64,000 bases of DNA from Notamacropus eugenii (taxonomy: Eukaryota > Chordata > Mammalia > Diprotodontia > Macropodidae): positions 142,001-206,000 of the forward strand of contig NW_027325148.1 in assembly GCF_028372415.1 (NCBI RefSeq), in the 5' to 3' direction. Made by a program: the position numbers and the translations under genes. The notes under the pieces were generated by a model. The model saw nothing but the letters and a program-made list of their open reading frames with translations, was not told where the DNA came from and did no database searches. Positions 2,363-61,957 of this stretch are shown piece after piece (positions within the stretch are counted from its first letter, which is position 1; the number at the start of each line of letters is the position of its first letter).

Positions 2363-2373
2363 GTCCTCTCCCT

Positions 2374-2394
2374 TTATTATCTGCTTTTTTATTA
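2374..2394 (-). promoter_or_regulatory. Paired poly(A) signals for the SYCE1 homologue
   Basis: Two minus-strand AATAAA hexamers (2374-2379 and 2389-2394) lie about 65-85 bp beyond the inferred stop codon at 2458-2460. They sit just before the LTR-like element, so the transcript probably ends here. Confidence 0.6.
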
Positions 2395-2457: not shown

Positions 2458-5400
2458 TCAGATGGAGATTTTCCTGATGTCTATCTCTCCCTCACCCACC
2501 TTGGTAACAATGCCACTTTTCCCTTCTGTGTCTGTGTCCTTGGATTCTCTGAGGCCAACCAATTCTAACTCCCTCTTCAGCCTGTGCCAGGAGACAGAAA
2601 TGGACAACACAAATTAGGATGGGTTGTACAAGGGAGACAGACAAAGAAAAAGGGAAAAAGAGAGTGGAAGAGAGATAAAGAAAGAGGGATAGGTTGACAA
2701 AAAAGGGAAGGAGGAAGGAGAGAGACAGAGAGAGAGAGAGATTAATGAAATACAACTAATACCCACTTCCTCTAGGGGCTCACCTTTGGTATTTCTGCTG
2801 TAGCTGTTGATAGTGTAGGGAAGCTGCTTCCAGAAATTCTGTGGCTTTCTTGTTTTCTTCCTCAAACAGTCGCCTAAAAAATATTGCTTGTAAGCTGTGT
2901 GTCCTGGGAAGCACTCCTCAATCCCCCAGACCTAGTCAATCCTCCTCTACTTCTTTTTCTTTCCCCTTGTGCCCAACAGAGGCTCACACAGCTGCAGCAG
3001 CCTCTTCACTGCACAGGAAGGCATCCACACTATTGATAGTTGTGGCTTCAATCTTGGTCTCACTATGGGTCAATCTGTCCAGCTGCTTCTGGATGCTGTC
3101 AAGCTTTTCCTGAGTTAGCCTTCCTGGTAACAGGAATACAAGTTATCTAAGCTGCCCTGTCATCAGGGATTTTCCTCTCCTTTCCAATCTCACTTCTTGA
3201 AGATTCTAAACAGGGTGGACACCTAATTTGGGCTACATTTAGGGCAAATTTTCATCTTCTACATCATGGGAAAAGGATGTTATCTTTAGGAGAATCTAGG
3301 ATACAGTCCTAAGAATGGGGAAACTCATTTTCTCAAAACAAACATTACTCACCTTTAGCTTCTCATTACCCCCCTTCACCCTCCAACACAGTTTCTCACC
3401 CTCCATCAGGAGCTGTTTCTTGTTGTGATTGATGTTGCAGATTTCTTGGGACAATCTGTCTGCCTTCTAATGGAAGAAAGAATAGGAGGCCATCTGCACC
3501 AAAAAATCCCTCCCTCCTCAGTAATGCCTGTCCTCACACCCCACTAAAGATGACATGACTTGCCCTTGACTTTGTTTTGAGTGAGGAAGGGCTGTGTAGG
3601 TCACCAGCTTCACTTCTCCTCCTGAGCCATCTGGATCCAGTGACCAGATATTCATCAGGATGACTGGAGATGGCCCAGGATGCACTGGGAGACCTTGGGC
3701 CTTTCAGACTAAGGTCTTGTCACACTCTCACTAGAGGTCTTCTTTCCTAACGCACTCCTGAACAAGAACTTTTTTTTACATCACCAAAAAATGGTCATCT
3801 TCTTGAAAACTTCCAGAGATTGCAAATCTACTTTTCTTGAAACTATCTAAAAACCATAGTTGCCCATGTTAAATACAACTCCTTAATCCAGTGACTTCCT
3901 AACTACCTTTTCAATCCACCCTCTGCTCTAAACTAGTGGCTATTTCACTGTCCCCTTGTGCATGCTAGGTGTATCCCTTTGTTGAAGTATTCCCCATATT
4001 CTACACCCCACTTTCCATACTGCCTATCAATAACCATTTTTCTTCAGATCCTGATCACAGATAATCCCCTCACATGGAATTCCCATAGGGTCTTATGCTT
4101 TTCCATCATTTCTTCTAGTTGCTCCCCAAACTCCATTCTAAGGAAAAGGAAAGCACAGGATTAATGAGAGTAACTACCAAAAGAGACTAACCCTCCAACC
4201 CAATCACTAATCCCAGATCTGTGGAACCAATGAAGTTCCACTCCCCACCTGACCAAGAAGTTTTTTTTCTGGGATATAGTATCTTTCTAGAAGTATACAA
4301 AGATCCCTCCCACTTTTAAATACTAATTGCATTAAATTGTATTGCAACAATCTCATCACTTACAGAGTAACAATTCCAAAACTGAAAAGTTCACCATTTA
4401 TCTAGTCTAGGCCTCTCACTTTGAAAAATCAAGAAACAAAGGGAGGGGAGAAGAGGGGAAGGTTAGTGTTAGGGTTAAATAAGGGAAGGATGAGCTAGGA
4501 ATAAAACCCACATCAGTGGGTTTCTGGGTCTTAATTTCTTCCCCTGTAAAAATAAACGTAACTATGCTTGATATTTTCTAATGTCTAATTTTCTATGAAC
4601 TTCTCAAAGTGAGAAGAGTTGCATGATAAAAGCCCTGGACAAATGGTCAGGAAACTCAAGAAACTGCAACTACATAACTGTGCAATCTTAGGCAAGTCCC
4701 ATCCTATCTCTGAACCTCAGTTTTCTTATTTCTAAGTAAGATGCTTGGACTAGGTGATCTCCAAAGAGCTTTCAAGCTTTTTTCACTTCACTGCCATGAT
4801 CCCTCCAGTCTTGCTTTGCATGTCTCATATTTGTGGGAAGACTCAGTCCTCTACTAATTTTCTTTAGTCCACAATCTCAATTTTGCTTTGAATTCAGAAA
4901 CCATCAAGTAGTAGCCTAAAGACAAAAACAAATTTTTACCTCTGATTCCTTTTCTTCAGTTTTTCTTCCTGGATTTTGGAGTTCAACTCTGTTATCCTCT
5001 TCTTGTATCCTTCAGACACTGTCTGATGCCTGAAGAAAGAAAGGTTGAGAGAAAAGAACCTCAGAATACTCTATTTTTATACTCAGTACTTCGCACAGTA
5101 AATGTTAAGTCATAATAATGTCTTAATAAATTATTGTTACCTTGCCCTCACAAGCAAAATCACTACATCAATGCAAAACAAACATGGTACCTCAGCATTA
5201 TTTTGCTGTGGCTTTTTCTCACTGAGTGCTGGAAATGGAATGAGTTCTAGTGAATTTACAAAAAGGAGAAATGAAAGAAGTCACCAACCTTAAGGCTTCA
5301 GTTTCTTTCTCCTGGCAGTGCAGGTGAAGGATCCTTAGAGTTTCTAGAATGAAAGGGGTTAAAAGGTAACCAAAAGGCTAGAAAAGTCCTTAAATGGCAC

Positions 5401-8400
5401 ATGATCTATGTTCTCAATCCTGCCTTTTTTAGAACTACTTAAACAATGGAGCCAAGTTCCCTATTCCCAATATGGCTAGTTTCTTCTTTTTCAAAGTATC
5501 CTATATATAACTACTTTGCATTTATTTGAATTTGTTCTCTTTATACTTAATCATAATTTAGTTACATATGTACTTATTGTCTTTCCTTTACAATATAAGT
5601 TCCTTGGAATTTGGGGTTATTTCATTTAATTTACACCTAATACAATCCCCAGCATACAGTAGATACTTTAAAAACATTTGTTCATTGGCTGATACCTTGC
5701 TTCTCAATCAAGATTTCCTTCAGTTGTGTCTCCTCCAAGCTCACTGCAAGTGACAGAAATTAAGAAGTCAGCCTTACTTTTCTGTCCTCCCCCACTCTTT
5801 GCATGCCTGGCCTACAGCAAGTTCACTGGGTTCTGAGTCTACTTGCCAAAATAACTTTACATAAGCACAGAAATGTCCATGTCATAATGATGGTGTTATG
5901 GGATTTGCCCTGGACCCTAAAAGGAAAACATCATGTCTTTGAAAGCAACCCAGTCCCTGAATTTTCCCACACATTTCAGTATTCATGCTTCCCACAAGGT
6001 ATCTGGCCTTGATTACTTACTTTACTTGACACTTCTTAATGTCATCTAGACCCCCTTCTGTCTGACCTCTGGACCACCTCAGGCTTTTTGCCACTCCTTA
6101 ATCTCAACTAAAATTTCTCACAGTCTTTTTCTGTATTTTTATATATAGTACCAGTGTTACACCCATTAAATTGTGCAGATTTACTTAGAATGTCCTCTGT
6201 TTCTCACAATAAATTCACTACTTTGAGTGGAAGGCCTGAGTGAACAAATTCTTTCAAAACAGAGTGCCTGTACCTTGAAATATGGGGTTTACCTCATCCC
6301 CAAAATGCATCAGGCTCCCCATGGTTTTTAGTGTTATAATAAGTTTAGAAAAAATAACCCCAGAGATTCCCTCAGTTTGCAGGTAACAAATTGAGGTTCA
6401 AAAGTACAATTTAAGTCAACTAAAAATAAATTCTTGTTTATCTCTTACAGCTCTTCTCAATTTGCTCCCAACCAATATCCATAATACAGTGTACTGTACC
6501 AACCCAGTCTGAACTTCTCTGTTTTTTACCCAAGTTGTTTTATTTCATTTCCCTGTCTTTGTAATACACAGTGCCTCATGACTGAAATATATCCCCTTTT
6601 TATCTCCACCTCACAGAATTCTTGTTTCTCCAAATAGCACTATTTGTAGTTCTGCCTGATTCACAGAACATTCTGGAATCATTGCTCAATAACCATTGCA
6701 TAGTTTAACCATCATGTATGTGTTCTTCATATTTATTCCATATTTGCTTAGGGTTGTACCTAATGTCTTCCCCATTAGAATGTAATTTAAAGTAGAAATT
6801 TCATTCTTTACATTTCTCTCTTTTGTGCCTGGACCATAATGATATGCAGTTAATAAATGCTTGCTGACTGATTTGACATTGTGGTCCTTTCTTCATAAAT
6901 TGGAAAATTCAGAGGAAAACAGAGAGGAAACAGGCTTTCACATTTGGTGTCATAAAGAAAAGATAATTTCAGGTTACAGCCTTGGGTGGTGAGTGGCTCT
7001 GTTTATGCCACATGTAAAGCAGTAAGTTGCCTACTGTTTTGAATCCATGACATGTAAGTGAATAGGATTTAAGTAAGGGAGAGTTGGGCAAAATCAGCAG
7101 CCTTACTTTCTCCTCCAGTCATGTAGGTGTAGTGGCCAGATATTCATCAGGACAAGTGGAGATGTGGAGGGAGATGTGGGCCCTTTTAAGTTAAGGTTTT
7201 TAACAGGTGTCAGTTTCACTGAGGCAATGCCTGTTCAGTGATTAAGACTTAGTAAGAAATGAGGCATATACACACACACACACACATTCATGTATATACA
7301 TACATATACATATACACAAATATGTGTTTATCTGAGAAGGAAAGAGTGTCAGGATTTCTAGCCAAAACAGAAATACCTGAGCTTGGGATCTATTATTGGC
7401 TGACCAGCAAGTGCTGGAGTGAATTGGGTTTAAGATTGGTTTTTAAGAAAAAACAAAAAAGTTTGACAGTGAACTTTACATTTTTTTTTTGGCATTTTCA
7501 GGTAAAGGTGTGATAGGAGTGGAAGGATAGGAGGAAAAAGAATGGTGGGAAGAAAGAGATGAAAAGGAGATGGAAAGCAAGACATATAGGTACATGGATG
7601 TGGGAATGATCTTCTTTTCTTCCTTTTTTTCTATTCTTGTAGGGAGGGTACTCTGTCTAAATGGAATGTAAATTTAATTTCTAAACCTTTTGTTTTTCCT
7701 TTCTTAAAAAGCCGTGTTCATTTACCAGGTCAGTCTTGATATTATTCATAAGTCAACAAGAGGTTTGTGGGTGTTTTTGTTGTGGTTGGAAACCCTAAGG
7801 GTTTTTTATTTCAAGACTGGTTTTCTAAAATTTTTAATTAATACATGTATATAGAGGTTAAGAAGCTGTTTTCTGCCTTATTTCTTATTAGGCCTTAATT
7901 ACCAAATGGGCATTGTGAAAGTGAGACTGATTAAAGACCTGAGGTTGAAAAGGTCAAGGTTTTCCAGTGCATCATAGGAGTTCTGCACTTGATCTATAAA
8001 TTGGCACTTGACTCAAATGGATTTGGAAGTGAAAATGAGGTTGGTGACTTTGCTTTGTTGTGTGTCATTAAAATGCAGTTCAGTTGCAAGTTAGTGGCAT
8101 TAATTCTCAGTTGTTATGGTTGTTTTTGAAAAGATAATGTAATAATCAAATAATTATAAACAGATAATATTTTAGGTCTTTTGTAAATGGAACAGTTTCA
8201 ATGAATGGTCATAAAATGTAATCAAGTATGTGTGTTTTGTTTTGTTTTTGAAATTTTACTTTAAATTGTGCATTGTGTGAATTCTTGGAAATTGCATGTA
8301 TCTGTGATTTGATAATGTTTGTGTCTTCTGTATTTGTCTATCCCTAATGTATCTATTAGTTATTACTGAGTTGTAGCAACAGTATTTGTCTGTGAGGAGT

Positions 8401-9568
8401 ATTTGTAGTTAAACAGGAGTTCAAAATTTTTCAAGATTTCTTTGGCTCATAAAAATGTAAGTGTGTAAAGCAGTTAGGTTTTGGGAAGAAAAGTTTTTGA
8501 AATTGTGTTACTTACAGTTATCTAGTTCTTTTTCCAGGGATTGTCTGTGTGCTTGGGTCTCACAGAGTTCCTTATTTGCAATTTTCTTGGCTGTATATAG
8601 AAAGATGAAAAGAGATATTTATAAATGGACAGTTACACATTCTTCCTTTCCTAACTGTAACCATAAAATGTAGCAAGTTGCAGTTGAAAAAGTATGGAAC
8701 TTTTCCACAGTTTTATGTAGAAATAAAATTCAGTATACAGGTCAGTCAACTTTTTCTTTTATTGGTGGTCTGTTAACATTCTTTAGTGTCTGGTGTCCTT
8801 TTATCATTTTCCTTTGAGTAATCTAATGTATGTATGTGTGTTTACTGTGATGTGTGAGTTAGTAAAATAAGTATTAAGCAGGTACAAGGAACACAGTGGG
8901 TACTGATATATTTTTCATTTTGGTTTTTTCAAAGCCTTGGCTCACCTTGTTGAAGTTCATTAATTCTGTTCATCATGTTTTCAAGCCTAGGTTGTGGGTT
9001 TCGTTCTGTAGGCAGGTAAGATGATATTGGGTTAGTTAATATAATGAATAATTTAGAAGAAGAATTCAAAGGGTTAGGCATTCCAAAATGTTTGTTATTT
9101 GTGGGTTTTGTTTCAATCGGTATGCATCAGAATGTTTATACAGTTAGGTAAATAGTGTCAGCATTGATGGGGCTTGAAAATTCGATGATCCAATATATTA
9201 TTGATTGTTTTTGTAACTAGGTCTTGTGTAATGTTTATCCTTCCAAAGTCTACTGTTTTCCACATCGTCAATCAAGTAGTTAGTAAAGTCTTATATATCG
9301 GGATGTAAAGAAATGGTGTTCTGTTTTTTAGGAAGATTTATATTGTAGTGGATATATAAATATAAGGTTATGTTCATCCACGTGGAGTTATCTACGCGGA
9401 TATGACTGGTTTAAAATAAAACATTTAAGTAGAAAGGGAGCAGTCATTGTGTAGAAGTGTTAGGGTTACAGTCGGGGTTATCCCAAAAAAATTAACTAGA
9501 AGTTAGGGTTACTCACCCTTTTTAAAACGACTGCCTTCACCTTCTTCTGCGTATGAGGAAGACGCCAT
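2458..9568 (-). CDS. SYCE1: SYCE1 homologue (synaptonemal complex central element protein 1), complete, 11 exons
   Basis: SYCE1 is a coiled-coil protein of the synaptonemal complex central element that works with SYCE3, SIX6OS1 and SYCP1 in meiotic synapsis. Minus-strand coding exons: 9568-9517 (ATG), 9005-8946, 8590-8516, 5743-5696, 5343-5289, 5029-4940, 4137-4074, 3466-3400, 3123-2988, 2873-2784, 2581-2500. All have AG/GT borders and compatible phases, giving 273 in-frame codons. The frame then either reads through to TGA at 2458-2460 (286 aa) or splices to an unseen exon. SYCE1 hallmarks include KQETLRILHLHCQEKE, EQLEEMMEKHKTLWEFH and LHYQQLQQKYQ. The N-terminus (MASSSYAEEGEG) is short and lacks the KIEDLMEMVQKLQK-like helix I recall from human SYCE1. 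An apparent stop at the 2988 exon edge is removed by splicing. SYCE1L is a less likely identity. Introns are kept, so it is not a retrocopy. Identity is from memory, not a search. Confidence 0.9.
3545..3730 (-). mobile_element. Marsupial SINE with GAAGGACAA-type tail (intronic)
   Basis: The reverse-strand segment contains the words CCAGTGACCAGATATTCATCAG and GATGACATGACTTG, shared with 7095-7255 and with the forward copy at 30360-30612. It lies in a SYCE1 intron. Confidence 0.6.
4625..4790 (+). mobile_element. MIR-like SINE (SYCE1 intron)
   Basis: Core pattern AACTGTGCAATCTTAGGCAA, followed by CTGAACCTCAGTTTTCTTA and a GGACTAGGTGATCTCCAAA segment. This is the typical order in the MIR/THER1 family. 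Diverged and old. Confidence 0.6.
6775..6880 (+). repeat. Dispersed 3'-end repeat with TAATAAATGCTTGCTGACTGA
   Basis: This stretch ends in TTAATAAATGCTTGCTGACTG. Similar ends occur at about 5570-5690, 21180-21290, 52650-52745 and 55320-55405. It is a common marsupial interspersed repeat end, probably L2/CR1-derived; the family is not certain. Confidence 0.45.
7095..7255 (-). mobile_element. Marsupial SINE with GAAGGACAA-type tail, truncated
   Basis: Shares TTTCTCCTCCAG and GTGGCCAGATATTCATCAGG words with the 3545-3730 element. Reverse orientation, incomplete, intronic to SYCE1. A short CA/TA microsatellite follows at 7265-7325. Confidence 0.5.
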
Positions 9569-9640
9569 GGTTACCGCCCTTTCTTCATCCGCTTCCAGTA
9601 CTACGTATCAAGGTTGCGCCTGCGCAGGAGGTATTCCTGT
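9569..9640 (-). promoter_or_regulatory. CpG-containing promoter of the SYCE1 homologue with NRF1-like site
   Basis: Immediately upstream of the minus-strand ATG at 9568 is a short CpG-containing segment in an otherwise AT-rich region. TTGCGCCTGCGCAGG at about 9613-9627 resembles the palindromic NRF1 motif found at many TATA-less housekeeping and germline promoters. No TATA box is evident. The transcription start is inferred. Confidence 0.6.
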
Positions 9641-9659
9641 ACAAATTTTTTTTTTTTGC

Positions 9660-12435
9660 CTCCGTTTTTTTAATTAAAGTGTATTTATTTGTCTTTTTCA
9701 TCGTCAGTTCCACCCGGATATTTTAGTGTAATTTATTTTCCATTCTTTCATTAAGGGAAATTTCCCCAAGATTTAATATTTCCTAATTCTTTGAACATAC
9801 AAAGAATGGACTAGAAAAAGATGATAAAAATTGTAACGTGAAACTGTGAGGTGTTGCGTTTAAACGTTTGTTACTTAAAGCACAATACAAGTAACACTTT
9901 TTTAATGTGACCTTTTAAAATTTGAAAACACAGTAAAATTATACACTTCAAAATATAAAAAAAATAATAAAATTTTTTTACATTCAGCCTCTTTCTATAG
10001 TTATATTTGGGAAATTTCAAGTTTTGAATTTACTATCTTCTCCTATTTTAAACTAGTTACTGTTACTATCGAGAAGTTATCATCATTATACAGTGAAAAA
10101 AATAAAAAATTACAACAAATTCAGTGTAAGAAAAAACAAAGTTGTATAACAATCAAGGACAATCTTCTAGTAATTCACTAACATATAGTTCAGATATTCT
10201 AGTAAACAAAAAAACTACCGAAAGTTCTCATATAGTCTAGCGGTTAGGATTTCCGGTTTTTCAACTAGGCGGCCCGTGTTCGACTCCCGATAGGGGAACA
10301 CTTTTTTTTTTTTAACAAACAATGTTTTTATAGTAGAATTTCTTTATATTTTTCCCCACAGATTTTCATTACTGTATTTCATTATAATTCCTTTCCGTCA
10401 TGTTCCCTTATACTTAAGTTTACATATTCAAAAACATTTTTTCTAAAAATAAAAACTTCCTAACGAAACAAGTTCTTCAAAAAAATTTAAAAAACTTTGA
10501 ACCACAAATTCCTTAAAATGTGATCCCATGCTTGTTTACCTGCCAAAGGCAAAAAAATCTTGTGTGTTCTAATGAAAGAACTGTTTCTTCAACAACATCT
10601 CTCTTAACATCACGCATTTACTTAGTCACGTGATTTTTAAACATTTATTTCCGGGTAACATCGAAAGTAAAGAGAAAACTTCTGGTTGAGACCCACATGA
10701 TGCTTCTCCGAGGTACATTTTCTTTTTCTTTATGGTGTTGTTTTTCTTTATAAATTACTGATGGTAAAGAATAATGCATTTTTAAATGAGGTATTCAAAT
10801 CCTACTTAGTCTCAACTGAAAAAACAAAATCATTTGTTCATTAATTAGCAAAAAAAAGAAACAAATACGCAACTTATATGCCCTTAAAATTCTGTTTATT
10901 TTTATACTTCTTAACTTTAAAATACACACAAAACAGCTAAGATAAAAATAAAATGTTTTAATTACAGTTTTGATGAGGAAACTGAATCTGACAAAATACT
11001 TTTTTTACAACTCACATCATGTAATTAAAACTACCACAAAAAGCAACAAATTACTTAAATCTGTAAGACAAAAAATATACAAATGCCAAACGAAAAACGG
11101 CCAAACTCTGCAGGTACAAAAATGCAAAAATAAAAAAATCCCATACCACAAAAACATAACATTTTAACAAATACACAACAAACAAATACTTATACACACA
11201 AAACATACAAATTGCAAATACCTTTAAAACATAAGAAATTACTAAAAATTAAAACAGCGTACTATAAAAAAAAGATGTCAGCTTCACTTTACAAATTCTA
11301 ACATTACAAAATTTTTTTACAAAATTATCCCTAACAAAAAAACTTCAAAATTTTTCTCAGGCATATTTTATACAATAGCTATAACCAATGATAACATTTG
11401 TGATTCCATATACCTGAACTTTTCTCACAAAAGAAAAAAAATTCCAAACTTAATATCAAAACTTTTAGTATATTAATTTTAAATATATTTTAGTAAAACT
11501 GGTAGTACCACTTGCTCTCTGCAAACATTATTTAAAACAAAAAATGTACACATATAACATTAAATATGGCACTCTACAACATAAGTTGCAAATCTGAGAA
11601 ATCAAAAATATTTAATTTTAAAAACTAATAAAGGATATTAAAAGTATTTATTTTACCCTAATCATATTAAAACAATAAAAAAAATTTTTTGAAGCTCAGA
11701 CTTCCACTTTCTGCTCTGTTTTCTTCTTGTTCCATACATACTAAACACTCACAGGAAACATAACTACATAAAACATTTTCATATTGGCAATTTCAGACAA
11801 AAACACTCAACTCCTTCCCTGTAGGTAAATGCACTTCATCACAATTCACTTAACATCACCTTGAATCATTGTTTTGCTCACAATACAAAATCATACACAA
11901 CTCATCTAACACCATTTCTACTCCTATATTTAATGTACTCTTTGATCTATTCATTTAATTCACCATGAGATTTCTTTCCAAGTTTCCAACATAATCATAT
12001 ACAATATTTCCCAATTGATGGCATCCCTTTCATTCCCACTTCTTGGCCACCACAAAAAGTTAAACTTGTATATGTGAGGTTTTTTTTGAATTTTATGATC
12101 CCTTTGAAATAGAAACCCACTTACTAACTGTGGGTTGAGACCTGCAGAAGCAGCCACTGCTGATTCACTGAGAGCAAACCGTACCTGAGTACCTTACATC
12201 TCCTAAGTTGTCAGAGATGGGAAAAATTTTAACCACAACATTTTCTTAGATATTTGATGTTAAATTTTTTTGGAGGAAAATGTTAGGAGAATTTGACTTA
12301 GATTCTTTTTGTATCGTACCATATTGTCCCTGCCACTTTGTAATATTCTTGATAGTAATAAATAAGAAATGGGTATGGAAAGAAAGATTGAATTCAGTTT
12401 TGCATCTGTTAAGTTTATAAGAAGAGATTTTTCAT
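9660..12435. other. Gene-free, AT-rich stretch with strong strand asymmetry
   Basis: Apart from the tRNA-like locus at 10226-10298 I see no gene. From about 9.85 to 11.9 kb the plus strand is strikingly poor in G (for example, one G in 60 bases at 11161-11220) and rich in A and C. Open frames such as 10970-11167 and 11960-12157 have no recognisable homology and look accidental. Confidence 0.6.
10226..10298 (+). tRNA. tRNA-Glu(UUC)-like locus, probably a degenerate copy
   Basis: The A-box region TAGTCTAGCGGTTAGGAT and B-box TGTTCGACTCC match vertebrate tRNA-Glu closely. A T-run suitable for Pol III termination starts at about 10302. Compared with the canonical gene as I recall it, the anticodon arm has one extra base and several changes, and the acceptor stem has at least one mismatch (A-G) and a wobble pair. 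It is therefore more likely a tRNA pseudogene or tRNA-derived locus than a working gene. Confidence 0.7.
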
Positions 12436-14204: not shown

Positions 14205-14345
14205 CCTGCTCATTTTGTACATGGGGAAACTAAGGCAAATAGGGTGATTTGTGATTTGTGTAGAGTAACACAACTGCTAAAGGTTTGGGGTGCAGTTCGA
14301 ACTCAGGTCCTCCTGTTTATTCCAGGCGACTTTATTCATTGTTTT
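14205..14345 (+). mobile_element. MIR-like SINE
   Basis: GGGGAAACTAAGGCAAATAG, then AGTAACACAACTGCTAAAGG and TTCGAACTCAGGTCCTCCTG. This is a MIR-type arrangement just upstream of the HMGB3 promoter. Confidence 0.6.
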
Positions 14346-14734
14346 AGTAGTTTCATTATTTTGTTGGTCAGTGAGTTCTTAAAATTGTAAAGGAGTATGA
14401 GTATCATTATTGTAGGTTTTTTCTTTTAGCTTTTGGTTCAAATGTTATAATTTTTATTTTCAGTTTCAGCTTTCGTTTTCATTTTTCTATAAGAGCTAGC
14501 ATTCAGCATGTAATTTTGTAGTTTTATTAAAGTGTTGTTTGTGTGATAAAACTTTTTGAATTATGTTTTTTTACTAATATTAATTCATTTGGTCTGCTAT
14601 TTCTTGTGTTTGTGGGTATGTTTTTTGGAATATCAGATGGTTTTGTTTCGCGTTTTCAGGCGGGTTGTTTAATTCAAATAATTTTTATTGCTGAGATCCA
14701 ATCATCGACTGTGTCTGTTTTATTATGTGGCCAA

Positions 14735-14874
14735 TGGTAGCTCAAAGAGGCTATTTTAACTGTAGTGCCTGTTAGCCAATCACGAGGCTCTCGCGTACTC
14801 TGGTATCGCGAGAATTACGGAATTTTTTAGCCTCTCGTTGTGCCCTGTGTTATACAGAGTAGCGAACAATACAG
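14735..14874 (+). promoter_or_regulatory. HMGB3 CpG promoter and noncoding exon 1
   Basis: A CpG-containing patch in AT-rich DNA. It has CCAAT boxes (GGCCAATGG near 14730 and AGCCAATCACG near 14774) and a TATCGCGAGA element near 14806-14815, close to the TCTCGCGAGA promoter motif. It ends in a splice donor, ACAG|GTACGT, at 14874/14875. This fits a noncoding first exon spliced to the ATG exon at 16736. The exact start site is not visible. Confidence 0.65.
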
Positions 14875-16748
14875 GTACGTTTTTTCGCTCCGCCTGCTTC
14901 TGTCGCACTTTGGTCTGATTTCCTGGCTGCATTCACATATTGTGTTATAACCCTTTACCTTTTTTAGTCTACTCTTGCTCTAAATTTTCTTTCATTTAAT
15001 TTTTTTACCTTTTGCTTTATTATACTTTTTTGCATGAAGACTAAAATTTGCATTCAGTTATTTTGCATTACTAAACTTAAGATTCGTTTATTTTAATATG
15101 AAAAGTTGTATTCAGTAAAATATTCTATGTATTCTATGGTGCAAGAAAACAAGGTAAAATATTAATATTTTTGAAGATAGATAAAATTTAAAGACAATTT
15201 TCGAAAAAATAATGGAAATTTTCAAATAGATTTCCAACTGAAATTATCTTTGCTGTTACATTTCATGCTGTCACAATTTTTTGTTTCAAAAATCGATGTT
15301 AAAACGTTTAGACAAATTGAGAAAGAAAAATTTGCAAATTCAAATCAGTGGAAATTTGTATTTTTACCTTAAATATCGATCATATTCAAGATTATACCCC
15401 AGATTCTTTACTTAGTCGTTTATGCAAATGAAAAGTGTGATTTAATCCATATGTTCATTTCTTTCTTATATCGAAATTTAAAACTATTTAAATTATAAAT
15501 TCTGTAATATATTTCGAATTGACTTATGTCTAAACTATCCTTCGTTGGTTAATTTCCATCCCCTTTCTTTACTTCAATTCTTAATGGCTGAAAAGGGAGG
15601 CTTTGTTAATGTAGTGTAATAAAACTAATATTTTGTCACCTAAAACCCTATCCTAAAACTAAACCTCAAAAACCCTTTTGGAAATCTCTGAATTTTTAAA
15701 TATATTCTAAAGATAATTTACCACCAACCATCAAACACAAATTTCTAGGGGGAGGAGTGTGGCTTTGTTAGCCAGTATGAGAAGCCATTTTAGTTAAACA
15801 CCGCAGCCCTGAGCCAGAAAAGCAGTACACTGGTTTTATTTATATTTACCTTTAAAATTAAAATTCTTTATCCTTTACTCATACTCACAAAATTATTTAC
15901 CTTTTAAAAATGTTTCTATTAAAATACTCAATTGAAATATTAAACATTTTACTTAATATGTAAAAAAAAATTTTGCATGCCTTTAATTGTGCACATATAC
16001 TTTCTCAGTACATAGCATGTTATCAAAAAAAATTTGATTCATGCTTTAAATATATATGTGTAATATATAATTGCATATGTACTTATTACATATTCAGATT
16101 GAATGAAATAAAATTTATTACATAGTCAAAATAAAAAAACCATAAAAGTTTTCATTATGAAATTAAAACAAAAAATAAAAATTGATATATTAAAAATGAA
16201 ACGATTTGAAAATAACTTTTTTTGCTTTTCAAAATAAATGGGTTTACAAGTTGAATGAACTGTTTCCTTTATGTGAAAATTTACCCTATAATCAAACTTT
16301 TATACTAACAAGAAACTAGAATCAGTTTATTTTTTTAAAATAATTCTAAAAACCCTTACTACAAAAACTTCTTTAAACATTGCTAAATTGTATTAGAACA
16401 GTAGGTGCCTTAGGGTTTACAGTAGTATATATGGAGTCAAAACAACCTCAGTTCATCTTCCTCATGTGTAAAATGACAATAATAATATCCTCTGTTGTTA
16501 ACATCAATTAAGACAGATATCTGTACAACATTTAGTACAGAACTTGGCACATACTAAGAAATATATTTTATAATTCCTATCGTCTTAAAATAATTATCCT
16601 AAGATAAACTTATAACCTAAAAAACAAACTTTCAAAATATTTAAAAAGTTGACTGTCTTAGAATTGCTTATAGTTTTTCCCCCCAAAATAAATGTTTTCA
16701 GGTTTTTTTACATTCATGATTATCTTTATTTCTAGCTACACACTAGAG

Positions 16749-19700
16749 ATGGCTAAAGGTGACCCAAAGAAACCAAAAGGCAAAATGTCTGCTTATGCTT
16801 TCTTTGTACAAACATGCCGTGAGGAACACAAAAAAAAAAATCCAGAAGTTCCTGTCAACTTTGCAGAATTTTCAAAGAAGTGTTCAGAAAGATGGAAGGT
16901 AAAAATTCTTTATATTTAATTGAATTCCTGTTTCTATCTGAAAATCTGTATTTCGTTATTTTTCGTTGTTTCCCCACTGACAATAATGATCTACTTTTTA
17001 AAAGGTAAGTGTTTGACACAGTTGATAAACATGCTGGGATGGAAATCAGGAACACCTGAGTTCAAATCCAGCACCACTTGCTATCTTTGTGACCTTGGGC
17101 AAATCACTGTAACCCTATTGTCCACATATTCTTCATATATAAAATGAACTGGAGAACAAAATGACAACAATCTTTTGCAAGAAAACCACACATAAGGTCA
17201 CAGAGAGTCAAACATGAATGAAAACTTAGTAAACCACAAAAACTTTTCAAAAGCACTCATTTAAAAGAATCAGAACTTCATAATTTAATAAGTCCAAGCT
17301 TAGCTAAGCAAAATAGAATTTTTATTTTTATTTCACAATGACTATCGATGTACTCAGGACTTGTGTTACAAGGTTGCTTAGCACATTCACTTAAGTGGTA
17401 CCTTTAACATAAACATTTTAAAATATGCAGATATTTTCAGTGAAATAATACATTTGGTTTATTTTCAGAATGTTCAAAAATGTTAAACAATTCTAATTGT
17501 TAAAGAAACTAGTTAAAGATAAAGAACCTGGTGCCAGTGTTTCTTTATTTGAAGTAATACACCAAAATCCTTACATATTCAAAAAATATTCAATTTATTG
17601 TTGTAAAGAAGGGACTATTAAAAAAATGATGCACAATCTGACAATATGCAGATACCAAAAGGTTTCCATTAAAAATAAGCATATAGTATGCCTTCAAATT
17701 TAGACAATGGTTAGATAAAATAATAATGAAATTTTTTAAATTTTGATTTTTTTTTTAATTAAAGAATATGTCTGGAAAGGAAAAATCCAAGTTTGATGAA
17801 ATGGCAAAGGCTGATAAGTTGCGGTACGACAGAGAGATGAAGGATTATGGACCAGCTAAAGGAGGGAAAAAAAAAAAGGATCCTAATGCTCCCAAACGGC
17901 CCCCGTAAGTAAAACTTCTCTCTCCAAGGAAAATATTAAATTATTTTTTTGTTCTCTTATGAAAACATAACTTTTATGTTTCTCAGAAAGGAAAATTTGC
18001 TTTGTACCTTTAGAGTTTAGTATACGCAGAAAAATATCCTCTGAAATCCAATATATATATATTTTTTTACTTTAAATTTGGGGCCTCTTAAAATTAACCT
18101 TTAAGTTGTACATCACCTGGGTTTTTAAAAAAGAAAAAAAAATCTTAAATTTTGTCAGGAGTCAGATAACTAAAATCATTATCTATGACTTTCTCCAAGG
18201 TCTGGCTTCTTCCTATTCTGTTCAGAATTTCGCCCCAAGATAAAATCTACAAATCCTGGAATATCCATTGGGGATGTAGCAAAAAAACTTGGTGAGATGT
18301 GGAATAATCTGAGTGACAGTGAAAAGCAGCCATATAACAATAAGGCAGCAAAACTGAAGGAAAAGTATGAAAAGGTAAGTTAAATATCATGAGATAACCT
18401 TGTAACATATTTTCCAAAAAAATTAGTATCTTCTTGTCATCTGTCACATCTGGCCTTATGTCTCATTGAAACCTTAAATTTTTCTACTCTTTTGTTTATC
18501 CTTTCATTGCCTTCTTAAGCTAATACCCCTTAATTAATTATCTTTATTATTATTTATCTTTTTCATTCCTGTTCAGCCAATTGTACTAAACCTTCTTTAC
18601 ATTAGTTATTGACAGGCCTTCACATCTCCTGCTTTCATTTGCTCTTATACTTTTTAAAAAATTATTGATGCCTTTTATTTTTATTTTATCCTGATGATTT
18701 GAGTATTTGAGAGTTAAATGGACCAACAGAATATTCCCATATTTTGCTTAAAGACTTAAGTGAGGGTGAACACCACTACATACTTTTTAAGAAACTTTTT
18801 TTCCTGACAACTTTCTTAGAGTCCTTTTCCTCATTTGACACTGGTTCAGATACTTGAAAAATGTTATCATTTTTCCCTCCAATTATCTTTTTTTTTCTAA
18901 GTTTAATACAGCAATTCCTTCATATGATATTGCTTTAAGGCCTTTCAGAGTCCTTTTTAAACTATGATGACTGTAATTGAAAATTCCAAGAAATACTCCC
19001 TCTTCTCTCTTTATATATTATCAAGATTGCTGTAAATCTTTGAAGAACAATTTCTTATGTCTTGTACTTATGTTGACATTTTTGTGTCCAAGTTTGATAT
19101 TTTCCATTTAACTTTGTAAGATTATTATAATCTGTCAAGATCCCTTTGGATCTGACATTTCTTCCTCTATATTTGCTACCTGCAGTTGTGTTGAGAATAT
19201 CATAAGTCCTTGTTTAAATATAGACAATTTACCTTTGAGTTCACACATCCAATCTGTATATTTCCATTTCCTCAACTATAAAATTGGTATAACATTAACA
19301 CTTATTTCTCAGTGTTGAGAATAAAATGAGATAATATTCAGTGAGTGCCCAGTATTTGCATTGACTCCTTTTCCATTCAGTCCATTCTCTGCCCCAACTT
19401 TCTTACCTTTTTTCAAAGCAATTTTTATTCCTTCATAGACATTAAAAATAATTTAATGTTTCTGCATTTTGGTGAGATTTATAGTAGTTTCTGTAAATTA
19501 GCATGTGCAATTGAGAAACAGAAATATCCTTTTGTATTCCCATTCTGTATTATCCATAGCTCTGATTTTTCTAAATTTTATAATGTATTCAGTTTTTATT
19601 GTTTATTTTATTCTTGCATTCATCTAGTCCTGAGAAAAGTAAATTGAGGTCCCTCACTGTATTTTAAAATGTACCATTTTACTGTATTTTCTACTGTAAT

Positions 19701-21626
19701 TCATTTTAACTTTCCCTTCAAGTATTTGTGTGCTCTGCAATTCAGTATTGACATTAATTTTCTGTGGTACGTTTTGTTCAAATATAGTGCTGATCTCTTT
19801 TAATTACATCTATTTTTGCTTTTTTTTTCCAGAAAACTTAATTATTAATTATTAATTACTCTTCCTGCTTTTCTTAATGTCACTTGAAACATAATTTGCT
19901 TCACCAAATTATATGTATGTCCATGAGTATTTCTGTTTATATATATATATAATATACTAAATTATATATAATATATATTATAAATGGATAATTACAGCTG
20001 ATAAGTGATTATAATTCAAGGCACTCAAGGCAATGATTATTGATCTTTCACATTTCAGCTCCTAAGTTTCAATTTCAGAGTTTCTGTGTAACTGTTTTTT
20101 TCATCAGGAGTACTTGAAATACTCTGTTTCATCAGAAGTTCATTCCCCTTGCCTTGCCTACCTCACACAACCAGAAAATGTAGCATTATAACAGTCATTT
20201 TTGCTGTATAGGCTCTTCTTGGCTGTAAATCCACATCCTTTGCCTTCTGGAATACTGTATTTCAGATTCTCTGCTCTTTTGTAGTGGTGAGCCTGACTGC
20301 AGTTCCTCAGTACTTGAATTGTTGCTTCCTTGATGCTTGCATAGTCTTTTGTTGATCTGGACACTCTAGATTCTGGCTGTTACTCATGTAGCTTCTTGGA
20401 TTTTCTTTTAGGAAATGACCAATGGATTCTTTCTATTTCCATTTTGCACTTAGGTTCTCAGAGATCTGTTATGCCATGATCTGAAGGACAGGCCTGGAAT
20501 CTGCAAGCTTTTGGTGTCCCCAGATCTAGAACAGTCTGTGATTGCTGCCCTTGGTTGTGAGCTCCTGGCCTAGATAGACTGTTGCTGGACTCTCCCTTTA
20601 GCAGGCAGCTAGGGAACTCTGTAGGGTCAGAGCAGAACTGTATCCTTCCCTTTGGACAGGAATGTTTGCCCTACTTATTCCTCCGCAGGCTTGAATAGAT
20701 GCTAGAAGGGAGACCCTGCTTTGAATCTGTGATCCAACCAACATTGTTGCTGCTGCTGCTGCTGGTTCTACCAGGAGGTTCTACCTTCTATACCCAAGAA
20801 CACTATGTTATAGGAAGTGCCCTTTCTCAGTCTATTCTGCTTCTACAACATATGTTTTCTCTAGTATCTCTTCCCTCCATTGTCTAACCTGCCAAATTCT
20901 TTCTTCCCTACTAGAAACACAGCTTGATCCCCTTCATCCTGTAAAAAAAATCTCTTACTATCTATATATATATATCTTGCTAGACCTACTCAATAATACT
21001 TTGTACATCCCTCTTGCAGTTAAATTGCCTTCAAAAGAATTAGCTGTACTCCATATGTCTGCTTACTTTTGTATTGCTCACTTGCAACCTTACAATTCCA
21101 TGAAGACTTCTCTCTCTAAAGTTATTAGCTCTGTTTTTGCCAGATCTCATGAGCATATCTCAGTTCTTGTTTTTGTTGACCTTTAAAACCTTTGAATATA
21201 TAGTTCTTGAAGGCAAGGGTAGTTTTACTTTTGTTTTAGTATTCCTACTACAGCATTGAACACATAATAAATGCTTGTTGATTTATTGAATACTCTTTTC
21301 ATCATTTTTAACTTGGAAGTAGTCCATATTTTTCCCAATGGAAAAAGCATTTTTAGTTTGAACATTTTAATTCTACAAAAAACATTAATTATATTACTAA
21401 ATATTAAATTAAATATTGAATCCATATTACTTTCTACATAGATTTCTGTCTGGTTATTTGACAGGTAATTCTTTAATTACTTCTCAAACAGGATGTTGCT
21501 GATTATAAGTCCAAAGGAAAGTTTGATAGTGCAAAGGGAACAGCTAAAGCTTCCCGGAAAAAGGTAGAGGAGGAAGAGGAGGAAGAGGAAGAAGAAGATG
21601 ACGAAGATGACGAAGATGATGAATAA
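16749..21626 (+). CDS. HMGB3: HMGB3, high mobility group box protein 3, complete
   Basis: Chromatin-bending nuclear protein with two HMG boxes. Coding exons: 16749-16898, 17765-17904, 18200-18374, 21492-21626. All borders are AG/GT and phases fit, giving 199 aa (human is 200). Box A (about residues 9-79) opens with [15 protein letters not shown] and keeps the redox pair Cys23/Cys45. Box B (about 93-161) starts after [13 protein letters not shown]. An acidic tail of Glu then Asp/Glu ends at the stop, 21624-21626. Against human HMGB3 as I recall it, changes include T51[13 protein letters not shown] in box B and GTAKASRKK in the linker, more than expected for a conserved X-linked protein. Introns are retained, so it is not one of the many processed HMGB pseudogenes. 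A Y gametologue (HMGB3Y) is the favoured reading. Confidence 0.94.
17022..17240 (+). mobile_element. Marsupial tRNA-headed SINE with RTE-type tail (HMGB3 intron)
   Basis: Contains GAGTTCAAATCCAGCACCAC, TTTGTGACCTTGGGCAAATC and the tail ATAAAATGAACTGGAGAACA...GGTCACAGAGAGTCAAACATG. Same family as 12722 and 31862. It is diverged but nearly full length. Confidence 0.75.
18375..21491 (+). other. HMGB3 last intron
   Basis: A 3.1-kb intron, AT-rich, with a TA microsatellite near 19940-19975. Its main content is the duplicated L1-like segment at 20067-20862 and a short dispersed repeat end near 21180-21290. No nested gene is seen; the short frames are unsupported. Confidence 0.7.
20067..20862 (-). 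repeat. Copy 1 of a near-identical duplicated L1-like segment
   Basis: Bases from about 20073 to 20760 match 34417-35101 with no difference that I could find, at a constant offset of 14344. Copy 1 then has about 40 extra bases (near 20761-20800), about 40 matching bases with two differences, and loses homology near 20862. The reverse strand resembles marsupial L1 5' UTR plus part of ORF1 (compare 25190-25480), with an internal deletion. No poly(A) or target duplication marks either end. Confidence 0.85.
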
Positions 21627-40854: not shown

Positions 40855-48915
<8,061 letters not shown>

Positions 48916-51100
48916 CTGGTAAAAATGGAAAAACATTGAGTGGTCTGAAGAAGGAAAAGTAGTCTGAGGTTAAAATGAAAGTTCAAAAGGAAAATGAGTC
49001 CTGTCCACTTTTGTGTAAATCTATGACTGAAATAATTAGAAAAGTGTAAAAGTATAAGGACATGGATAAAGACAGAGTTAAATACATTTTTGGGGGTGAA
49101 AGATCTTATTTTTGAAGGTATAATTAATAGTAAATATTTGGGTTACTCTGGGAGTATTAAAGAGAAAGTGGAAGTAGAATGAGCAAGCATTTATTAAGTC
49201 TATAGTAGTCTGCTTGATCCTTATAACTTTGTAAAGGGGTTATTGTTATTGTTTTACAGATGGAGTAAATGAGGTAAAGTGATTAAGTTATTTGACTCGG
49301 ATTTAAATGGCTAAAAAGGTTCAATTTGCATCAAAATCAAGAAAATGGGTCAACAATGATTGCATTACTTTAGGATAAATGATGGGAAATAATTTCAAAG
49401 AGGTTTTAATTACTTCACACATACACAAAATGGCCGACGCAAATAAAGAGTCCTGGATAATAAATATTGGTTTATAAAACAATTTCAACTAATGCTTTAA
49501 GTGCAAAACAGTCAACAGAGAACTGAGAAATTACAGAACTTCAAACTACTAAACAATGTTATATACAGAAATGTACATTTAATGAAGCTTTCCCTAACTA
49601 AAAGCTGAAAGTAAATACTGTACCTGACTTTGTATTCATCAAAATGCCTATTCTACTGTAAGCGATTTATCAAAACAAAGCTAAATTGAACTCGTGGTCA
49701 AAAAATAAAAAGGACAAAAATTAAAGATTTTTAAAACAAGTGGTAATTTCTCATGAAATTATGAAGGAATTGCACAAAAAGTATTGAAGTATTACGATAA
49801 AACTGAATAATACAAGAATATATTTCAAAGCGAATATTCCCCTCCCCATTTTAAACCTAACCATTTCAAATTTCAGTAAACAATGAAAAAGTTTTTAAAA
49901 ACTACCTTTTTTCCAACTAGGTTTTGTTTAATCAGGCCATGGAATGTCTCTTTTCTGGATTAACCTTACCACTTTACCACGTAAGAATCGCCTCGACTCC
50001 AAGTAGGATATTGAAAAAAAGGAATTCGGAATCAAAGCAGGACTGTACCACTTGGCAGAGGGGAGACCATTTTTTTAAATCAAGTCTTACTACCTATGCC
50101 ATTAAATAATAACATTAAAACAGATCATGTCATGAATTTATATGAAAGTTTTTTTCAAACACACTTTCCTGTTTTCCCATATTCTTCAGAAACGCTTTCA
50201 CCACATTTCCAAAATAATTTTAAGTAAAAAGTATGGTACAGTCCAAAATTTGTCGCAAAGCAACTTGGGTTACTTTTGACCAAATCGTATCTTGTAAAGA
50301 AAGACGTACATTTGAACCTTATTTTAGGATATACAATCATTTCTTTTTGTGTACTACAGTAATTTGAAAATGCTCCCTTTTAAGGGGAATACAAGAAAAC
50401 ATTTTTTGGGTTGGAGAACATTCATTTAAAAAATCCTCAAAACTGTAGCTTAAGTACAAGATGAAAAATTATAATTTACATAAGTAATTTTAATTTCAAA
50501 GTGATATAAATATATATAATATATGAATATAAATGATAGTTAAAATAAAACTGAATTCGAATTTGTATTGTTGTAAACATAGCAAAGGAAAATTTATTCT
50601 GTTTGGTAAGAACAAATATACTTGGTAATTTACAAATTTATATTGTTTAACTTGAATCTTAAGGACACCTATAATTATGAAAGTATAGTATTTTTTAGGT
50701 AAGCAATGAAACATGGAAAGGGAGAAAATAAGTAAAATGAAAACATTAAAGGTATAGTAGATGCCAATTTCAAAGTACTTTTAAACTACATATTATTTAT
50801 AAAGCAAAAACATTGAGTACCAGTATGACGTTGGTGATGAGTGTGTTTTGATCATGAATGAATGTAATTTGTTCCTTTTTGCTAAAATATGTTGCTTTTT
50901 AAGACGCCTTCTGTACATTTACCCCCAGCAATGCTGTTATTTCGCGGGATAACTGCAAAAACAGAAGTCCTTCTTTGTTGTAACTACAAAGACATAATAA
51001 CGTAGAAAACAAATTTCAAATAAAGTACACCACACCCCGAACCCTCCCCCCCAGCCCTCCCGCCCCTTTTTCCCACTTTTTCTCCAACCTAACGGCTATA
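48916..51100. other. UBA1 first intron or upstream region
   Basis: The UBA1 coding exon opens directly after an acceptor AG at 48917-48916, so at least one noncoding exon must lie upstream. I could not place it. The stretch is A-rich, holds one MIR-like element near 49175-49330, and becomes CpG-containing only after about 51.0 kb. No separate gene is seen. Confidence 0.55.
49175..49330 (+). mobile_element. MIR-like SINE
   Basis: GCAAGCATTTATTAAGTCTA, GATCCTTATAACTTTGTAAA, GTTTTACAGATGGAGTAAAT. MIR-type order, diverged. Confidence 0.5.
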
Positions 51101-51548
51101 GTCAACTAAGAACCACGCCTTAGGGGGCGTGGCTTGGGGCAACCTGAGGCCTTAGTGACGGAAATACCTACCAATGAAAATCGAGATGACGTAAGTGCGT
51201 GACTGCGGCTTCCAATAAATGTACTTCGAGCCGGAACTGTCACTATGGTAACTGAGACCCAACACGGTTTGTTGTGGTGATTCAGAGTTGCGGTGGGGGT
51301 AGAGTCAGAAGCATCGCGAAGGCCGCCATTTTGTGGTGGCTCTCTTTTGGTAGTGTGCGTTTGGCTTTACCGAGGATGATGGGTGGGGTTGGAGGGGGAG
51401 CAGAAAAAATAATCCGTTCCCTACATCCAGCCTCTCGTTTTTCTAATATTTGACAGGGTGCGTGAGCCTTGGTACTGTACATACGTTTGCGCGCCTGAGC
51501 GAGGGGGCGCCTCACCGAACTCCTCGCCTCACAAATCGAAACTAGCAG
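51101..51548. promoter_or_regulatory. Presumed divergent UBA1/RBM10 promoter with RBM10 noncoding exon 1
   Basis: The most CpG-rich part of the UBA1-RBM10 interval. It has GATGACGTAAG (CRE/ATF-like, about 51184), an inverted CCACGCC/GGGGCGTGGC pair near 51112-51133 (KLF/SP-like), and AAGGCCGCCATTTTG near 51317-51331, a YY1 site typical of promoter-proximal first exons. A plus-strand donor, AGCAG|GTGAGTG, at 51548/51549 fits the end of RBM10 exon 1. UBA1 reads away on the other strand. The start sites are inferred. Confidence 0.6.
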
Positions 51549-54251
51549 GTGAGTGAGGGAGGAAAGAAAATTGAAGAAATACTGTGACAAAGCTGAGGAG
51601 TGAGAGAGGGTTAGGGTTTGGGTACTTGTGACTTTGGTTTAAAAAGGAAGGGGGTCACAAACTTCTGTGGAGAGGTACACTTCTGAAAAACAAAAACGGT
51701 AGGCCTAAGCATCCAAAACGTAGGCGGGAGGTTGGGAAGGAAAAAAAACCGTTAGACATTTGTGTTTTCCTCCCGAGATCCGCTGAGGGATAAAAAAAAT
51801 TGACATTTGGTTCCTTGACTTCTCCCACCAAAAACGTCAAAACTTTCAAAGTTTGAGTTTCAAAAAAAACCAATATGGTACTGTTACAAACCCACAGAGT
51901 TCCTAAAAACTAGACGTTAACCTAAAACATTGTAGATTATTATTCTCAGTTTGAAAAAGAAATTATCCCCAGAAAAATATGCCACATGGGGTGGGAAAAC
52001 CAAACGGTAAAAACTTTTACATATGTATTCAAAAAAGAATCAAGTTATTATTTTACTGACAGTAAAACTAATTTCAGATTACTTATTACTTATTAGTTAC
52101 AACTAGTATTAATTACTCTTGGAAACTTAGAAAGTAATCCAAACACTCAACACATTTCCTCCCCTAAGCCTGTTAAACAAAACCCAAATTGTTTCTTCTC
52201 ATTTACACAAATTAAAAATTCTTCGTAACTTTTAAGTAATTTTTTGTCACAATTCCCTGTCCCTCTACATTTTCCAACTTAAAAAAAGTAACACTCCATT
52301 TCCTTAATCCACTTTTATCTACACCACTTCCATAAAATTCTTTGTACCTTCTTAATTTTCAATTTCTTTGTTTTATCCTGTCTATTCTCAAGCAAGAACA
52401 CTGATGACTATAACCACTGTTAAAATTTTAGAAGGAAAAAACTTAGATAAAAAACAAACCCTAACATCTCAGCTTTTAAATTATTTATTCTACTGCAAAA
52501 CCAAATTATTTTCTTACTTTAGTAATTTAACAATCTCTCATTCTACCTACATTTACTTTTAATACTTCACCCACTCATTTATTTATACAATTTATTTGCA
52601 CATTTTCTGCTTATACTTCATTGCCTGGAATTTCTTCCATTAAATTATTAACTTCTACAGAGCAAAAATTATGTTTACTCTTTCTTTGCATTCCTACAGC
52701 TTAACACAGTATGTTTTCTATAGCAAATCCTCAATAAATTCTATTTTGACTTTATTCTATCTGCTAATCCCAAAACCACCCTCTAAACAAAAACATGCTA
52801 TCATTTTTTCACTTCTGCTTACATTACTGGATGTTAATTATAACTAGACACAACAAAATACCTACTTGGTTGCACTAAATACAACACTGGACATACATGG
52901 AATAAGACATCTTCCCAAGTTCAAGTAAAAGTTCAAACAGTTACCACTAAGGCCTTTTTACTTCACTTTCCTCACCTGTAAAATGAACTGGAAAACAAAA
53001 TAAAAAATTCAAAATGGGCTCATGAAAATTCTGAAAAAAACAAAATAATAGCAAACACTATTTATCTCTAATACTTCTTTACTAAAATGGAAAAAAAAAA
53101 CATATTCCTACGTATCTTCCTTAGAACAACTTCCTCTAGATTCCTAGTTTTCTCACTGTTATGTACCTGAAATTTGTATGCCATCTGTCATAACTTTTTG
53201 TTTAGACAAATGTCAAAATTCTAGTAGCTAATATATCTAGACACCATTGGGTGAAAATATCAAAATAACAATACTAAAAATCAGTACTTTACATTCAAAT
53301 ACAGAGGACTAAAAGGACCTGTGAAATTCCAGTTCTTTATTGCTTATAACAAATCACCTCACCTGTGTTTTTGTACCAACTTTTGTACAATAGCTTTACA
53401 TATTATGTGGCCCAAAGAAAGATTAGGGTTAGAGTTAGGTAGCATTTCCTTTTTTTTAAAAAGTTGGAAAACAAAGAAAAGACACCTTGATGGATCATAC
53501 GATGCAGGAGAAAATAAAGCCATAAATATAAGACCATAAGTCCGTGGCTAACCATCATAATTCATCTCTTTGGTAATGAAAGTGAAGTCAGAAAAGCAAC
53601 ATGACTTGCCTGATATCAAAACACAAACACAACTCCTCATAGAATATAAACCACTTTTAGAATGCCATGCTAATTCATGGGACATAAAAGAAAACTTATT
53701 TAAGCAAAATGACCATTTATGGTAGGACTAAAGATAAGCAAGAAGAATGGGATCTTCTGAATTTGAGTTGGAGGACAGTAGAGATAGCTTCATTAAAATA
53801 CTTCTGTATAATCTGTACTACACCTCTCACCAGCCAATAATAAAACAAAGTGACTAAAAAACACACATAAATTTAAAATCAGTCTCTAGCAAAAAATCTT
53901 GGAATGATCTGAGGAAACTGATCCATTCCCTACTTCTGTTTGTCTCTCTTAAAATGTAATCAGTACAGGTAAGCCCAAATAAGGTAGTTTTCACATAATA
54001 CACCTAATTTTAGGCTCCCAAGTCTGTTTTTTTGACCTTTGGAAAACTCCATTTATCTTTTCCATTCTGTACAAATCCTAACCAAGTAGTTTTATTTGCA
54101 TGTTTTCGTTTGTCCTTAAAAACTCTCGTCTATTTTGTTCACATCATCATCAGACACCGTGCAGGCTTGCAGAACATGGTGTTGGAAGCGTGGTGGTAGT
54201 TGTGTCTGAAAAATAAAGAGAAGCCATTGCTCCAAGAAAAATACCCAAGAG
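51549..54251 (+). other. RBM10 first intron (and 5' part of the ATG exon)
   Basis: AT-rich, and from about 51.9 to 53.4 kb strongly depleted of G on the plus strand. A weak SINE tail-like stretch lies near 52905-53045. No other gene is seen. The ATG exon probably begins near 54153, after one of several nearby AGs. Confidence 0.5.
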
Positions 54252-58929: not shown

Positions 58930-60390
58930 TTTTCCCATTCTCTTACTCTACTATTTTCACCATCCATTTCATGAGTATGATTTTCTGTCTGTCATCCACT
59001 ATTCCTTTCTATATCTCTCTCACTCTTTGTCTCTGTCTCTATCTTTCTATCTCTCTCTCTCTCTTCCTCATTCTTTTTCTTCCTCCCTACCTTGCTGACA
59101 TCCTCTGTCACACAGTCATACCCACACACTGTATCTCCCGGATACACAGATTCACTCATAAATACACTCTTTCTCATTTTCTTTGTCTGTTACTCATTCT
59201 CTGTCTTACACAGACATTGTTCTCTTTCTCTCTGTTTGTCTGTCTGTTTCTTTCTATCTCTCTCTGACATAATCTCTTACACTGACATATAAACATTCTC
59301 TCCCTCTCATCCTTGGTCCTACACACTCTCTTTCTCTCCCCTTCCTCTAAAGCTCACACATGCACTCTCTGTCTTTTTCTGTCTTCCATCCAATGTCTAT
59401 CTAACAAACACAACTACATTCAACCACATCCTCTTTCAAGCAAAAACAAATCCCATTCACACATATATGCAATCTCTTTCTGATACATTCCTCCCATTTC
59501 ACTCTGTTTCTCTCTCTCTATCTCACACCTCCCCCGCCAAAAACATAAACACAAAGTCACTCTTGATCTCTTTTCTTTCTTACCCACAACATCTGATGGA
59601 AATTTGATCTGAGACAACATACTAAACCTAATTTTCTCTCTATCTGTCTGTCTGCCTCTCTCTCACACACACATACACACACATTGTTACTTGCTGGCTT
59701 TTCTTTCTTAACCCCTAAGTCTCCCACACACTGTCTCAACTATACACAAAGACTAGAACACTAACAGTCCTTCACAGTACACCTAGGTCACAATCAAAAA
59801 TGGATACACGACGTGTTTTCTTCTCTTTCACTGTAATTCACACATACTGTCAGTCAAACACTCAAAAAATCTCTTTGTGTTTCTGTTTCTATTACATATA
59901 CACACACTTACTGATTCTTGGTCTCTTTCACAGACAAAAAAACACACACTCACTCAAAATCATACACAACCGAACACATACTCTCTCAAACTCACCATAG
60001 AACTCTTTCTTTCTGTGTCTCTCTCTCTCTCTCTCCCTCTCTCTCTCTCTCACTCCCCCATCCCCACCCCCCCTCTGTCCCTCCCCCTCACATACACACA
60101 GTCTCACTCTTGGTATCTTTTCTTTTTTACCCAGAATGTCTTACACATCTCCCTTCTCCAAAATTGACACACAATCCAACACCTGTTCTTAGTCTCTCAC
60201 ACTCACCATAAGTCTCCTTCCTTCTGTGTCTCTCTGCCTCTTTCTCCCTCTCTGTCTCTGTCTCCCTCTCTCTCTCCCTCACTCTCTGTCTCCCTCTCTC
60301 TTTCTACCTCTCTCTCTTTCTGTCTTGCCCTCTCTCTCTATCTCTCCCTCTCCCTCTCTCTCTGTGTCTGTGTTTGTTTGTCTCTCTCTC

Positions 60391-61890: not shown

Positions 61891-61898
<8 letters not shown>

Positions 61899-61957
<59 letters not shown>
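61899..61957. repeat. (TC)n microsatellite inside the array
   Basis: An uninterrupted TC run of nearly 60 bases. Confidence 0.95.

Follow-up and report, generated by a model that had tools for sequence, protein, structure and literature searches.

The window analysed here, a 64,000-nucleotide stretch of the genome of the tammar, Notamacropus eugenii (contig NW_027325148.1, positions 142,001 to 206,000), carries an intact, intron-bearing SYCE1 gene (2458..9568, minus strand). Going by its sequence and surroundings, this gene is probably SYCE1Y, the still functioning counterpart, on the Y, of a marsupial SYCE1 on the X; UBA1Y and HMGB3Y would accompany it in a small cluster, where it has been preserved intact. 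The find is real but not new: the gene, its Y linkage and its X partner have already been published for the brushtail possum, whose genome paper places SYCE1Y on male-specific scaffolds and reports an X-linked homologue, SYCE1X (PMC10582058). The main text of that paper describes differential expression of the two, and its discussion supports adaptive evolution on the Y; there, the gene is named in one sentence of the results, goes unnamed in the discussion and has no function stated for it (PMC10582058). The initial annotation of this DNA, which held that lists of marsupial X and Y genes do not include SYCE1, was thus mistaken on this point.

The SYCE1 gene and its product

The gene comprises eleven exons on the minus strand, running from 9568 down to 2458, with GT-AG borders at all ten introns and consistent splice phases. 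The spliced coding sequence of 861 nt specifies 286 amino acids without an internal stop, whereas a random frame of 286 codons of the same composition would be expected to stay open with a probability of about 3e-8. The protein matches the Pfam family SYCE1 (PF15233) over its residues 22–170 (176 bits, E 6.7e-52; curated cut-off 27 bits); a search of solved structures with it gave no match at E 0.001. The eleven-exon gene originally proposed is therefore borne out in its splice sites, phases, open frame, both ends and family membership.

Exon 1 (9517..9568; MASSSYAEEGEGSRFKK) contains the start codon and is without a clear human counterpart, and clear homology sets in with exon 2 (8946..9005), at about human residue 47–50. 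Two further boundaries can be tied to splice-site mutations described in human SYCE1, namely c.197-2 at codon 66 and c.375-2, the latter deleting residues 126–155 (PMC7467691). Exon 3 (8516..8590) starts at the codon and phase of the human exon affected by c.197-2A>G, and exon 6 (4940..5029), with its 90 nt, equals the human exon for residues 126–155 affected by c.375-2A>G; both the positions and the phases of these boundaries are shared between the window model and human SYCE1. The spliced model further places exons 4 (5696..5743), 5 (5289..5343), 7 (4074..4137), 8 (3400..3466), 9 (2988..3123) and 10 (2784..2873), and exon 11 (2458..2581) includes the stop codon. It is followed by two AATAAA polyadenylation signals on the same strand (2373..2393), 65 and 80 nt past the stop, and by a third at 381 nt.

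Protein comparisons with human and mouse SYCE1 and human SYCE1L, and those with human HMGB3, UBA1, RBM10 and CYP2E1 below, used reference sequences not drawn from a database. The alignment of the window protein with human and mouse SYCE1 is ungapped across human residues 47–198. Identity to human SYCE1 amounts to 72/128 (56%) in residues 52–179, 52/122 in residues 177–305 and 133/277 (48%) overall; the corresponding figures for human versus mouse are 92/128, 85/127 (both in the same human intervals) and 213/327. SYCE1 residues 25–179 form a core that is an antiparallel dimer (PMC6823292), onto which residues 25–50 pack as a helix (PMC7467691). This N-terminal helix is hardly represented in the window protein, where identity is down to 2 of 11 aligned residues. 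For the human exon piece KIEDLMEMVQKLQKV (residues ~31–46), no counterpart was found on the same strand in 9006–16500 or in intron 1: its best score in 9006–16500 is 20, with a median of 20 and a maximum of 30 in 100 shuffles and a self score of 71. The remainder of the core appears, from sequence, to be retained, and so does the second region that binds SIX6OS1; this downstream region (human 177–305), which belongs to a part that SYCE3 binding also depends on, is kept as sequence. The product can thus be likened to human (351 residues) and mouse SYCE1 in its PF15233 match, exon boundaries, ungapped core and downstream binding region, and it departs from them in having another N terminus, lacking residues ~31–46, and a short, dissimilar C-terminal tail.

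Promoter signature, neighbours and chromosomal linkage

The SYCE1 promoter region (9001..11500) has retained its CpG dinucleotides, with an observed-to-expected ratio (o/e) of 0.79 and 42 CpG at a G+C fraction (GC) of 0.29, and gives the highest CpG o/e among 2.5-kb intervals stepped every 250 bases. Over the gene body (2400–9000) the ratio is 0.02, with five CpG in 6.6 kb. Values of 0.01–0.27 are seen in the 18 non-promoter 2.5-kb blocks (the 24 blocks of bases 1–60000 minus six around the three promoters) and 0.28 in the satellite end at 60001–64000, while isolated 500-bp bins off the promoters reach 0.55 (satellite), 0.48 (beside L1) and 0.44 (near RBM10). The promoter regions of HMGB3 (14300..15500, plus strand; CpG o/e 0.95, GC 0.30) and UBA1 (49000..52000, minus strand; 0.64, GC 0.35), both hand-chosen intervals, behave alike: all three keep their CpG at a GC of only 0.29–0.35, without being GC-rich. 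Such retention suggests promoters that have long been unmethylated and active in the male germ line, and their AT-richness would fit a non-recombining chromosome. Some 48 bp ahead of the start codon of SYCE1 (upstream) lies GCGCCTGCGC (9616..9625, plus strand), an exact instance of GCGCMTGCGC, which we take to be an NRF1-like motif; it is the single such site in the window, and none occurred in 100 shuffles.

SYCE1 stands in the company of known marsupial Y genes: UBA1 and HMGB3, both intact, lie beside it, as does a decayed 5' piece of RBM10. HMGB3 (16749..21626, plus strand) has four coding exons and 199 residues. The initial annotation put SYCE1 5 kb from it, which holds for the CpG-retaining promoter region of HMGB3; the start codon lies 7.2 kb away. 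UBA1 (40855..48915, minus strand) has 25 coding exons and 1058 residues, including the motif around Cys632, presumably the active site. Compared with human UBA1 (the reference used being identical to PDB 9mc4 over residues 1–957), it is identical at 905 of 1058 positions. Fifteen of the 52 human Arg positions are changed, 14 of them to His (7), Gln (6) or Cys (1), the direction of change being unpolarised; these replacements would match the products of CpG decay at CGN codons in an otherwise intact enzyme. Of RBM10, the first three coding exons are found (54252..57031, plus strand), two by match and the short first one placed by eye, with a shortened Arg run, Arg to Trp/Cys changes and identity to human RBM10 at 97 of 129 aligned positions. 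The sequence then passes into satellite, and a query of ~420 human residues did not recover later exons in the 9.7 kb up to position 64000; the piece is probably a decayed Y copy. The CT-rich satellite flanking the cluster (58900..64000) has a unit repeated at ~2.9 kb.

The literature offers precedents for this company. UBE1Y is a Y gene of the tammar (PMC3820666), UBE1X/Y has been treated as an old therian pair (PMC3477149), and an HMGB3-like gene has been placed on a Y scaffold of antechinus (PMC9631953). The possum SYCE1Y, likened here by its description, is likewise a SYCE1 homologue on marsupial Y sequence and may be the orthologue of the window gene (PMC10582058). The window is thus very probably a marsupial Y gene cluster, because of its companions (UBA1, HMGB3 and the decayed RBM10), the satellite on both sides, the CpG-decay signature and these reports, and the suggestion of a probable marsupial Y gene island made at the outset is upheld by the same features. 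What the window itself shows is an intact gene model, its promoter signature and the adjoining genes; from these we infer the Y location and the status of the gene as a gametologue. It would then parallel marsupial pairs of the UBE1X/UBE1Y type, in which an X gene has kept an undamaged counterpart on the Y; in this case UBA1 adjoins it. Among ten tammar Y genes, all but ATRY and RBMY are reported as ubiquitously expressed (PMC3820666), whereas SYCE1 is a meiosis-specific structural protein.

Several points weigh against reading the gene as a functioning SYCE1Y. At the protein level, the failure to find an exon for human residues ~31–46 means that the product may not act exactly like SYCE1, and its Pfam score is below those of human (235 bits) and mouse SYCE1 (218.6 bits) and equal to that of human SYCE1L (176.3 bits). 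That SYCE1L sequence lacks the 126–155 exon and the C-terminal helices that are present in the window, and its Pfam match is split over two stretches, which may speak against a SYCE1L identity of the gene. At the level of linkage, SYCE1X is attested by the main text of one paper (PMC10582058). UBA1, HMGB3 and RBM10 are also compatible with the X, where their X copies lie or neighbour one another, and CpG decay could occur there as well. The truncation of RBM10 is likely, while its remaining exons could lie past 64000. Finally, HMGB3 has diverged little, being identical to the human protein at 185 of 199 positions, which lends no weight to the Y, and what the window holds might be the X copy.

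These points converge on the main rival, in which the window comes from the X and the gene is SYCE1X beside UBA1, RBM10 and HMGB3. An X-linked SYCE1 does exist in the possum (PMC10582058), tammar UBA1 and RBM10 have been found on a single X-derived bacterial artificial chromosome (PMC3046482), and the similarity of HMGB3 together with the intactness of SYCE1, HMGB3 and UBA1 also speaks for it. Set against this is the state of RBM10, of which three exons with a shortened Arg run and Arg to Trp/Cys changes lead into satellite within 9.7 kb, with the proviso on its remaining exons already given. The divergence of UBA1 and the CpG decay at its Arg codons, as gauged against the human protein instead of a marsupial UBA1X, point the same way, as do the HMGB3 and UBA1 promoters, whose retention of CpG at such low GC would be expected without recombination. 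Moreover, UBA1 and RBM10 are oriented head to head here and not in tandem, the order that we take to hold in human. On balance, an X origin of the window is unlikely, though it is the alternative that fares best.

Less likely still is a later arrival of SYCE1 on the Y, by transposition at the DNA level from an autosomal locus and independently of any X copy. Such a course would accord with the retained introns and with human SYCE1, which we take to be autosomal, in contrast to the probable sex linkage of the window gene. CYP2E1, presumably the neighbour of human SYCE1, left no trace in the window when its C-terminal part was searched for, while a transposed block need not have included it. Above all, an X-linked homologue in the possum makes an X-Y pair the simpler account (PMC10582058). 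Given that pair, the tammar gene is most plausibly the member of an X-Y pair that has survived on the Y, and not an autosomal newcomer, and its introns then need no special explanation. Of the two origins first envisaged for it, transposition from an autosome thus becomes the less likely, and a locus ancestral to the chromosome is favoured. That the gene is a young, unconstrained duplicate yet to acquire stops, of which ~0.46 would be expected per 1% of neutral divergence, is very improbable in view of its canonical splice sites throughout, of the CpG o/e of 0.02 over 2400–9000 with CpG retained at the promoter, suggesting that the gene has been in the male germ line for long, and of the 48% identity to human SYCE1 and missing exon, both of which could predate the copy.

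A possible meiotic role

If the gene is indeed SYCE1Y, it most likely acts in the manner of SYCE1, which helps to zip chromosomes together in meiosis, localising to the central element and being required for synapsis, and a path to its function can be sketched. SYCE1 serves as a leptotene marker in the mammals studied, the opossum included (PMC9834047), and SYCE1Y would be transcribed from its unmethylated promoter in early spermatocytes, i.e., in leptotene, ahead of sex-chromosome silencing. Its product would be a coiled-coil protein of the central element, the core of which may self-associate or pair with the N terminus of SIX6OS1, while the downstream part would bind SIX6OS1 and SYCE3 and thereby stabilise SYCP1 zippers. 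Retention probably reflects a need of male germ cells for two SYCE1 doses, or else a male-specific role. The function of the protein and the reason for its retention are what we infer by setting the sequence beside the published possum pair, the leptotene-marker status of SYCE1 and the binding regions of human SYCE1.

A role of SYCE1Y in the dense plate that associates the marsupial X and Y is possible and makes a fair hypothesis. In this structure, SCP1 is present between diplotene and telophase I (PMC1557784), and in mouse diplonema, SYCE1 is seen in what remains of the synaptonemal complex at chiasmata and paired centromeres (PMC3386176). By term counts, SYCE is absent from the text of PMC1557784, PMC8853506 and PMC10166821. 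The more specific proposal, that SYCE1Y is a male-specific, N-terminally shortened central-element protein which assists in loading SYCP1 into the X-Y dense plate or in keeping it there, must be regarded as a long shot; were it true, the Y would encode part of the structure that secures its own achiasmate segregation. Even apart from this, marsupials never synapse their X and Y, and here a synaptonemal-complex gene would have copies on both. The SYCE1X/SYCE1Y pair can thus be seen as a direct handle on why some genes survive on the Y and on what builds the dense plate.

Other features of the window

The satellite unit at the window's end is present in copies at 60292–61109 and 63189–64000, which are 95.7% identical at a spacing of ~2.9 kb. 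Weakly related CT/GA-rich sequence recurs at 1–230 and 1419–1647, such that kin of the satellite lie near both ends of the window.

Around the SYCE1 promoter (7000–12000), the plus strand is enriched in G+T towards the gene and in A+C on the upstream side; transcription-linked strand asymmetry usually runs in the opposite sense. Upstream of SYCE1 and HMGB3, and to a lesser degree of UBA1, G+T predominates on the sense strand; the downstream sides differ, and no conclusion is drawn from the asymmetry. Within the same promoter region, a decayed tRNA-Glu-like sequence can be recognised by eye at 10225–10299 (plus strand); ARAGORN called no tRNA gene in the window, this site included, and Rfam gave no match at gathering scores.

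Among the 8 of 46 listed open reading frames that were scanned with Pfam (20.7–34.3 kb), seven had no match above cut-off. The remaining one is an L1 ORF1 remnant (25102–26230, minus strand) with RBD-like and dsRBD-like domains above cut-off in one frame, adjoined by a coiled-coil frame (25628–26230) that is assigned to it by position only. Lastly, a direct repeat of 692 bp (20067–20758 and 34411–35102), 99.86% identical and 14 kb apart, represents either a recent duplication or a pair of repeat elements.

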